From Nakamurella endophytica (GTDB lineage: Bacteria; Actinomycetota; Actinomycetes; Mycobacteriales; Nakamurellaceae): 64,000 nucleotides of DNA. The DNA is taken from assembly GCF_014646215.1 (NCBI RefSeq), contig NZ_BMNA01000002.1:62001-126000 (forward strand), read 5' to 3'. The notes under the pieces are model-generated. The model worked only from the letters and a program-made list of their open reading frames with translations, ran no database searches and was not told the origin of the DNA. Below, piece by piece: positions 25,181-27,011 of this stretch (positions are counted from its first letter, which is position 1; each line of letters opens with the position of its first letter). The translations under genes and the position numbers were made by a program.

Positions 25181-26083
25181 GTGACCGCCGCCGACGGAGG
25201 CCCGCTGCTGGACGACGACGGGGTCCCGCGCGGCCAGCCGGTGCTGGACGCGCTGGTCCGGCTGCTGGACCTGGAGCGCCTGGAGGAGGACCTGTTCCGC
25301 GGCGTCTCCCCGCCGATGTCGCCGGTCCGCGTCTTCGGCGGGCAGGTGGCCGCCCAGGCGCTGGTGGCCACCGGTCGCACCGTCCCGCCGGACCGCCGGG
25401 TGCACTCGCTGCACGCGTACTTCATCCGGCCGGGCGATCCGTCGGTGCCGATCGTCTACCAGGTCGACCGGACCCGGGACGGCCGCAGCTTCACGACCCG
25501 CCGGGTGGTGGCGATCCAGCACGGCAAGCCGATCTTCACCATGTCCAGCTCGTTCCAGGTCGACGAGCCGGGTGTCGACCATGCCGTCGACCTGCCGGCG
25601 GTGCCGGAGCCGGAGACCCTGCCGACCATGTCCGAGCGGCTGGCCGCGGCCGACCCCAAGCCGCCGTTCTTCGCCCGGGTGCCGCGCCCGTTCGACATCC
25701 GCTACGTGGAGGCGCCGCACTGGACCGGCCGCGCGCAGCCGCGCCCCGGTGTCCGGGTCCGGGTCTGGTTCCGGCCGGACGGCGCGCTGCCCGACGACGA
25801 CCTGCTGCACGTCTGCGTGCTGGCCTACCTGTCCGACCTGACGCTGCTGGACTCGGTGCTGGCCAGCCATGGCGTGGCCGTGGGCGAGGACGTCACGCAG
25901 CTGGCCTCGCTGGACCACGCCATGTGGTTCCACCGACCCATCCGGCTCGACGACTGGGTGCTCTACGACACCGACTCGCCGAGCGCGTCGGGCGGGCGCG
26001 GCCTGGCCACCGGCCGGTTCTTCGCCCGGTCCGGCGCGCTGCTCGCCACGGTGGTGCAGGAGGGGTTGATCCGGGTCCGCTGA
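25181..26083 (+). CDS. tesB: Acyl-CoA thioesterase II
   Basis: 300-aa double-hotdog thioesterase that hydrolyses medium- and long-chain acyl-CoAs. RVFGGQVAAQAL near residue 50, VHSLHAYFIRPGDP, AYLSDLTLLDSV (catalytic Asp), SLDHAMWFHRP and VVQEGLIRVR (catalytic Gln) match the TesB fold. Length is typical. GTG 25181 has GGGAGGA about 9 nt upstream. It is 40 bp after pyk and is probably co-transcribed. The physiological substrate is not predictable from sequence. Confidence 0.93.
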   Translation: MTAADGGPLLDDDGVPRGQPVLDALVRLLDLERLEEDLFRGVSPPMSPVRVFGGQVAAQALVATGRTVPPDRRVHSLHAYFIRPGDPSVPIVYQVDRTRDGRSFTTRRVVAIQHGKPIFTMSSSFQVDEPGVDHAVDLPAVPEPETLPTMSERLAAADPKPPFFARVPRPFDIRYVEAPHWTGRAQPRPGVRVRVWFRPDGALPDDDLLHVCVLAYLSDLTLLDSVLASHGVAVGEDVTQLASLDHAMWFHRPIRLDDWVLYDTDSPSASGGRGLATGRFFARSGALLATVVQEGLIRVR

Positions 26084-26148: not shown

Positions 26149-26225
26149 TGGTGCCCCCGGTCAGACTCGAACTGACACTGGACGGATTTTGAGACCGCTT
26201 CCTCTGCCGATTGGGATACGGGGGC
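26149..26225 (-). tRNA. tRNA-Leu (anticodon CAA), class I shape, CCA encoded
   Basis: Read on the minus strand the acceptor GCCCCCG (from 26225) pairs fully with CGGGGGC, followed by A and an encoded CCA. The T arm is GTCAG-TTCGAGT-CTGAC, and the anticodon loop is CTCAAAA, giving anticodon CAA for UUG codons. The variable region is only five bases (CCAGT), whereas bacterial tRNA-Leu is normally class II with a long variable arm. The anticodon stem has a U-U at its loop end, and the D stem is short with an enlarged loop. The structure is clear; the amino-acid identity is inferred from the anticodon only. Confidence 0.88.
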
Positions 26226-26263: not shown

Positions 26264-26269
26264 ATCCTA
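26264..26269 (-). promoter_or_regulatory. -10 box for the tRNA gene
   Basis: TAGGAT on the minus strand lies 38 nt before the tRNA 5' end, which would give a leader of about 31 nt for processing. No good -35 was found. Confidence 0.5.
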
Positions 26270-26423: not shown

Positions 26424-27011
26424 ATGACGGCACCGCGCCGTGTCCTCATCGCCGAGGACGAGGCCCTGATCAGGCTCGATCTCGCCGAGATGCTGACCGA
26501 GGAAGGTTTCGAGGTGGTCGGCCAGGCCGCCGACGGGGCCGAGGCGGTCACGATGGCCGGCGAGCTGAAGCCGGACGTCGTCATCATGGACGTCAAGATG
26601 CCGAACAAGGACGGCATCGACGCAGCCGCGGAGATCGTCACCGACCAGATCGCCCCGGTCGTCATGCTGACCGCGTTCTCCCAGCGCGACCTGATCGAGC
26701 GGGCCCGGGACGCCGGCGCGATGGCGTACCTGGTCAAGCCGTTCAACCAGGCGGACCTCCTGCCGGCGATCGAGCTGGCGGTGGCCCGCTACACCGAGAT
26801 GGTGGCGTTGCGCGAAGAGGTCGCCGACATCACGCAGCGGCTGGAGACCCGCAAGCTCATCGACCGGGCCAAGGGCCTGCTGATGACGGCACAGAAGATG
26901 ACCGAGCCCGAGGCGTTCCGCTGGATCCAGCGCACCGCCATGGACCGGCGGACCTCGATGCAGGTCGTCGCCCAGGCCGTGCTCGACGGTCTCGGAGCCA
27001 AGTCCTCCTGA
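26424..27011 (+). CDS. pdtaR: ANTAR-domain response regulator (PdtaR type)
   Basis: 195-aa two-component regulator with an N-terminal receiver and C-terminal RNA-binding ANTAR domain, expected to control transcription or translation by antitermination. The receiver has acidic residues in IAEDEALIRL, phospho-acceptor Asp56 in VVIMDVKMP, the Thr in MLTAFSQ and Lys in LVKPFNQ. ANTAR helices follow from ~130: TRKLIDRAKGLLM, EAFRWIQRTAMDRR. A cognate PdtaS-type kinase is not adjacent. GGGAGG lies before ATG 26424. Its place between pyk-tesB and polA matches mycobacteria and Streptomyces. Confidence 0.93.
   Translation: MTAPRRVLIAEDEALIRLDLAEMLTEEGFEVVGQAADGAEAVTMAGELKPDVVIMDVKMPNKDGIDAAAEIVTDQIAPVVMLTAFSQRDLIERARDAGAMAYLVKPFNQADLLPAIELAVARYTEMVALREEVADITQRLETRKLIDRAKGLLMTAQKMTEPEAFRWIQRTAMDRRTSMQVVAQAVLDGLGAKSS

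Follow-up and report, generated by a model that had tools for sequence, protein, structure and literature searches.

Within the 64,000-nucleotide stretch of the Nakamurella endophytica genome analyzed here (hereafter the window), a tRNA gene combines a leucine anticodon with a short variable loop, which raises the question of the role played by a leucine tRNA that lacks the long arm of its usual bacterial counterparts. A first-pass annotation had hesitated between a diverged decoder of UUG, a tRNA of a different amino-acid identity and a regulatory tRNA. In our view (probability of about 0.92), the gene encodes a working elongator tRNA-Leu for UUG, which would be charged by the sole leucyl-tRNA synthetase (LeuRS) of the cell through A73 and the tRNA core, class I (short variable loop) and class II (long variable arm) forms being interchangeable.

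The tRNA-Leu(CAA) gene, 77 nt long, occupies positions 26149..26225 on the minus strand. It was detected by ARAGORN, and the Rfam model RF00005 matched positions 26152-26225 with 49.3 bits, for a gathering threshold of 29, and an E-value of 1.6e-7, as is the case for a tRNA fold. The anticodon CAA (26189..26191, anticodon position 35 in ARAGORN), the discriminator A73 (26152) with the encoded CCA (26149-26151) and the variable loop CCAGU (26177..26181), all on the minus strand, were found as first annotated by ARAGORN, Rfam and direct reading. This loop of 5 nt is not the long variable arm by which class II is recognized. Direct reading also agreed with the annotation on the perfect acceptor stem (GCCCCCG/CGGGGGC) and T stem (GUCAG/CUGAC), and on a U31.U39 mismatch in the anticodon stem; of the 27 class I rows in the alignment, 12 are mismatched at position 31.39. 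U48 of the variable loop stands opposite A15, forming a trans-Levitt pair. The D stem had been described as weak. Indeed, C13.A22 is unpaired, but three pairs are present in the D arm (U10-A25, C11-G24 and C12-G23) and the genome's two class II tRNA-Leu likewise leave 13.22 unpaired. In allo-tRNAs, the acceptor/T branch is of the 8/4 or 9/3 type, i.e., 8 or 9 acceptor pairs and 4 or 3 T pairs. Here, 7 acceptor and 5 T pairs were observed, with 100% of the cells paired over the 27 class I rows. Over the whole aligned class I set, 97.8% of the cells are paired and double changes occur in 15 of 20 pairs.

The genomic context is illustrated by two protein-coding genes, in agreement with the placement first given to the tRNA, between tesB and an ANTAR regulator, which Pfam matches supported. 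The convergent neighbor (25181..26083, plus strand) encodes a tesB-like acyl-CoA thioesterase (PF02551, PF13622 and PF20789), and the divergent one (26424..27011, plus strand) a PdtaR-like response regulator with an ANTAR domain (PF00072 and PF03861; best PDB match 1s8n). Among the best 80 of 540 loci, the closest PdtaR is that of Nakamurella lactea, with 82% identity. A candidate -10 element, TAGGAT (26264..26269, minus strand), starts 44 nt upstream of the tRNA. With a range of -50..-30 set around this very site, a TANNNT motif starts in 14 of the 16 genus loci, window included, for 0.94 of 16 in mononucleotide shuffles.

The tRNA can hardly be called diverged, as had been proposed at first: relatives are found in each of the 16 other genomes sampled in the genus and well outside it, and the neighbor and the promoter element are conserved. 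A BLAST search with tRNA-Leu(CAA) gave a match in 46 of 61 genomes, that of N. endophytica (G000) and the 16 others of the genus included. The class I model R1, at an E-value of 1e-14, matched 132 of 148 genomes of the host's class, again including G000, and 43 of 149 genomes in a phylum sample; 31 of the latter lie outside the host's class, out of about 136 such genomes, a number obtained by subtraction, 86 rows with no match being unlisted. The 30 loci from the BLAST search (that of G000 included) carried 28 CAA and 2 UAA anticodons, PdtaR adjoining 26 of the former and none of the latter. Similarly, the 30 loci from the class search comprised 15 CAA, of which 14 adjoin PdtaR, and 15 UAA, of which none does, and the 24 new phylum loci comprised 16 UAA, 7 CAA (6 adjoining PdtaR) and one called Phe(aaa). 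Since the fetched loci were the best-scoring ones, their anticodons are not a random sample. Besides, 27 phage records match the window's tRNA (E 1e-5), and in Mycobacterium phage Bonray (L256 1414-1649) a class II tRNA-Leu(CAG) lies next to class I (GAG) and (CAA). Another class I tRNA-Leu(CAA), at locus L234 (G172:C1:5308040-5308113), has a variable loop and a D arm unlike those of the main family, and is perhaps of separate origin.

Both classes were encountered beside pdtaR. Among the 80 named loci, i.e., the best 80 of 540, 78 have a tRNA-Leu(CAA) at this place, 65 of class I and 13 of class II, and two are without. Streptomyces is split, with four class II and five class I loci out of nine; class II is further found in seven Nocardia, in Pseudonocardia nigra and in Gordonia malaquae, and class I in the five remaining Pseudonocardia and two Gordonia. 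For five of the 78 loci, including G. malaquae, the sites do not correspond exactly, since the tRNA is oriented the other way. A tree built from PdtaR together with DNA polymerase I, which was present for 53 of the 80 rows, requires at least 7 class changes. This is a quick tree with Streptomyces poorly resolved; when Streptomyces was collapsed, at least 4 changes were retained (Nocardia, P. nigra, G. malaquae and one or more Streptomyces), or 3 without G. malaquae. The loci of two related Streptomyces, L157 (class II) and L159 (class I), share 95.9% identity over 172 nt. This stretch ends upstream of the tRNA, about 70 nt away from it; identity resumes at 87.8% from position 842, with only one 78-nt match at 79.5% in between. 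The difference thus extends from that point into the following gene, and its position between similar flanks points to the replacement of a block. Judging from these sequence comparisons, class I and class II forms appear to have been exchanged more than once beside pdtaR, and may be regarded as interchangeable versions of one tRNA in Actinomycetota, each replacing the other.

An alternative bears on the history only. Instead of an exchange between two old lineages, class I could have arisen in situ each time, the resident class II gene losing its arm, a scenario that we regard as possible but rather unlikely. The D-loop features A14 A15, A20a, G21 and the unpaired 13.A22, as well as the GU before the T stem, are shared by both forms and link them, and the variable loop is of another kind in a few class I tRNA-Leu(CAA) (L234 and phage locus L256), which suggests separate origins. 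However, most of the class I CAA, UAA and UAG sequences read have a loop ending in AGU and a CCCAA..GG..AGAGG arm in common, which fits one old family, and the block by which L157 differs from L159 fits replacement.

As regards the exchange of two lineages, candidate mobile elements were found at some of the loci. A LAGLIDADG-like gene that also has a helix-turn-helix lies near tRNA-Leu(CAA) in 10 of the 80 loci, namely seven of Streptomyces (L150, L151, L153, L154, L156, L157 and L159), that of P. nigra (L130) and two of Actinomycetospora (L141 and L149), and the same search returned none in the window. In the seven Streptomyces loci and in P. nigra, it is located 3' of the tRNA on the same strand; in Actinomycetospora, the tRNA is reversed and the gene is on its 5' side. 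At L157 and L159, the gene after the tRNA associates a LAGLIDADG-like part with a helix-turn-helix, the PF14528 scores of 20.2 and 19.6 bits being below the cut-off of 22.5. One of the seven Streptomyces genes is cut by a contig end and another is in two pieces. L130, the sole class II locus among six of Pseudonocardia, also carries such a gene. Overall, the LAGLIDADG-like gene has the appearance of a homing element associated with the tRNA gene. In Streptomyces, a link between the type of this gene and the class of the tRNA, considered by eye, was rejected, L156 and L159 having the same tRNA type and a differing first part of the neighbor gene. On plasmid 5 of Tsukamurella tyrosinosolvens (L257 3001-4280), a class I tRNA-Leu(CAA) is followed, 12 nt beyond its 3' end, by the end of a convergent gene for a site-specific integrase. 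This placement, which would be that of an integration site, fits the partial 3' tRNA copies near the full one in genomes G029 and G060. More speculatively, and with rather low confidence, two interchangeable tRNA-Leu lineages might be swapped at a fixed site across Actinomycetota, as a CAA cassette, by selfish elements such as homing-endonuclease-like genes, integrases and phage tRNA genes; such a change in tRNA architecture could protect the cell or the phage against nucleases and toxins that recognize one of the forms.

The leucine tRNAs of the N. endophytica genome were inventoried with RF00005, and ARAGORN on the 45 matches. Five tRNA-Leu were obtained: UAA, UAG and CAA of class I, CAG and GAG of class II. 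The gene at 26149-26225 is the only CAA tRNA found, and no class II UAA, CAA or UAG was detected by RF00005 up to an E-value of 10, including the second, class II tRNA-Leu(CAA) that the first-pass annotation had recommended to look for. The sole extra match at this threshold (C5:179322-179405, 84 bases, 17.5 bits) is the 3' part of the tmRNA and not a hidden tRNA-Leu. As the assembly is a draft (30 contigs, 99% complete), its gaps could conceal a class II copy; none was found in two finished, single-contig congeners, which have the same five tRNA-Leu. One bacterial-type LeuRS is encoded (TIGR00396), and the search for a second one returned five further TIGR00396 matches of 27-59 bits, for a cut-off of 548.

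The inventory was extended to 12 more genomes, each in one to three contigs, i.e., these two congeners and others spread over families, three of which were chosen after null class I searches (G030 and G107 with R1, G027 with BLAST). It relied on models R1 (class I, E up to 1e-12) and R2 (class II, E up to 1e-11) and on ARAGORN, so that weaker copies would be missed. All five leucine anticodons were present in each of them, one class II UAG being called Pro(agg) by ARAGORN with a loop that reads TTTAGGG. Over the 13 genomes, G000 included, class I was found for CAA in 9, UAA in 9 and UAG in 4, and CAG and GAG were of class II in all 13. Each anticodon occurs in one class only in 12 of the 13; the exception, G027, has class I CAA, GAG and CAG genes in a tRNA array, in addition to the full set of five in class II. 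In this array (L225 319-2612; G027:C1 near 8928973-8930081), the class I genes are located beside Trp, Pro, Arg, Phe and Glu tRNAs.

The gene might instead be a pseudogene or specify a regulatory tRNA-like RNA, UUG being read by tRNA-Leu(UAA), which could in principle do so by wobble under established decoding rules. It is the lowest scorer among the genome's 45 RF00005 matches above the cut-off, its anticodon stem contains the U31.U39 mismatch, and its neighbor is an ANTAR regulator. Nevertheless, we hold this reading to be very improbable: compensatory changes keep the stems, the promoter element is conserved, a tRNA with the CAA anticodon is kept at 78 of the 80 pdtaR loci and is present in class I or class II form in all 13 inventoried genomes, and the tRNA gene is directed away from pdtaR. 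No support was found for the regulatory tRNA initially suggested. The suggestion of a UUG decoder fared better, because no other CAA tRNA was found in the genome and leucine is the residue with which UUG aligns.

This alignment was established in two ways. At the 80 named pdtaR loci, codons were compared in pyruvate kinase, PdtaR and DNA polymerase I (21, 80 and 45 loci, respectively), in columns with at least 70% agreement, the rows being related and not independent. In class I loci, window included, UUG corresponds to leucine in 376 of 388 conserved columns (next residue, 6), UUA in 10 of 10 and CUA in 29 of 31; in class II loci, UUG does so in 63 of 63 conserved cases. The CUG control gave leucine in 2435 of at least 2503. 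The window itself contributes four UUG and one CUA in conserved columns, all leucine. Then, 204 kb of G000 were compared with 200 kb from each of three genomes, two of them congeners and the third more distant, over 68 ORFs, selected by score and identity only, some of which may be shadow frames. When at least two relatives agreed, UUG was leucine in 41 of 48 cases (next residue, 3), for 935 of 1006 with CUG, 311 of 345 with CUC and 2 of 2 with CUA; without this filter, the values were 125 of 185 for UUG, 2969 of 3776 for CUG and only 10 of 29 for CUA. UUA was used once, with 0 columns in agreement, and UUG is rare, representing 120 of the 3043 leucine-family codons compared. The reassignment of UUG was rejected on both sets of alignments.

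Leucine identity was also considered from the tRNA side. The determinants reported for E. coli LeuRS are A73, A15-U48, G18G19 and A20a, to which U8.A14 is added in Aquifex (reviewed in PMC9976931). The set A73, U8, A14, A15-U48, G18G19 and A20a, taken from this review, is complete in 5 of the 45 distinct tRNAs of G000, which are exactly the five tRNA-Leu, and incomplete in all 40 others. Among 84 distinct class I tRNA-Leu of the other fetched loci, a set that includes this genome's own CAA and UAA again, A73 is present in 83, A15-U48 in 82 and G15-C48 in 2, the latter being readable as covariation of the pair. The whole sequence behaves otherwise. When 34 class II tRNA-Leu of other genomes were made into a profile, the anticodon loop and variable region being cut out, GAG, CAG, UAG and UAA took ranks 1-4 of the 45 tRNAs and the CAA tRNA rank 34; by D-region identity, UAG ranked 8th, UAA 11th and CAA 28th. 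Hence, it is the determinants, the meaning of the codon and the shared locus that carry the leucine reading, and not an overall resemblance. With the covariance model R2 (11 rows, among them the two class II genes of G000), the three class I tRNA-Leu came right behind the two class II ones (65.7, 59.6 and 53.1 bits, the last for CAA; next non-leucine tRNA, 49.7), a ranking that is not independent since the model includes the anticodon. The anticodon alone proves little, as in humans a CAA anticodon is borne by a class I tRNA that is related to tRNA-Met and perhaps silent (PMC8450103).

Charging with another amino acid, UUG (or UUA and CUA) being reassigned or ambiguous in the lineage, is the least credible reading and highly improbable: it could draw on the class I body, the masked profile that fails to group the tRNA with leucine and the rarity of UUG, but the first-proposed different identity is contradicted by the codon counts (376 of 388 and 41 of 48, with next residues of 6 and 3), by a full determinant set, which is incomplete in all 40 non-leucine tRNAs, and by the relatives' class II tRNA-Leu with the same anticodon that adjoin pdtaR.

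Returning to the elongator reading, the tRNA would decode UUG after charging by the single bacterial-type LeuRS, which would rely on A73 and the core (U8.A14, A15-U48, G18G19 and A20a); the long variable arm, absent here, would be dispensable for this enzyme. The class I UAA, CAA and UAG tRNAs would serve UUA, UUG and CUA, and the class II CAG and GAG tRNAs the common codons. On the premise of the first annotation, that bacterial LeuRS uses the long arm, reviews disagree. In E. coli, the sequence and folding of the arm are uncorrelated with leucylation and variants without it stay active (PMC9976931), whereas another review places important recognition elements of LeuRS tRNAs in the variable arm (PMC7373986).

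Compared with canonical bacterial class II tRNA-Leu, the present tRNA shares the leucine anticodon, A73, U8.A14, A15-U48, G18G19, A20a, G21 and the unpaired 13.A22, as well as the place beside pdtaR in relatives. It differs by its 5-nt variable loop, instead of an arm of 13-18 nt, and, in this genome, by A9, A26 and C13 in place of G9, G26 and G or A13. Human mitochondrial tRNA-Leu(UUR), for which A73 and A14 act as determinants, is likewise leucylated without a long arm (PMC9976931); unlike that pair of mitochondrial enzyme and tRNA, one bacterial LeuRS must serve class II tRNAs too here.

Mycobacteria, of the same order, provide the closest precedents. In M. tuberculosis, long variable loops are named for tRNA-Leu-2, 3 and 5 (PMC11541572), which implies that others are without one, and a cluster-encoded mycobacterial tRNA-Leu(TAG) has a short loop, the usual one being long (PMC6582537). 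The short loop is thus stated or implied in both, but in the passages concerned these are incidental remarks, in which class I CAA, UAA and UAG genes are presented neither as the only decoders nor as a state of the whole phylum. Elsewhere, tRNA-Leu is described as class II, for the cytosolic tRNA in PMC9976931 and in general in PMC7609411. A table of tRNAs from six Streptomyces gives one CAA gene each, uncommented as to structure in the section concerned (PMC4932002), and the text of a screen for genetic-code changes (PMC8629427) does not contain the words tRNALeu, Actinobacteria or Nakamurella. Among the open-licence papers of PubMed Central, the two mycobacterial glimpses were found, but no account of the general pattern or of class I tRNA-Leu acting as the sole decoders.

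From these data, a class I tRNA-Leu is the only tRNA found for UUG in this organism and, by the counts, in much of the phylum; in this genome, the same holds for UUA and CUA. It would be a natural counterpart of the in vitro report that the variable arm is not required by a bacterial LeuRS. This is also a warning for isotype callers and surveys that expect a long arm, which may misjudge class I tRNA-Leu genes. Besides, the presence of class I or class II beside one and the same gene in mycobacteria, streptomycetes and others is a natural experiment on the purpose of the long arm, and the replacement of one tRNA gene by another becomes directly testable.
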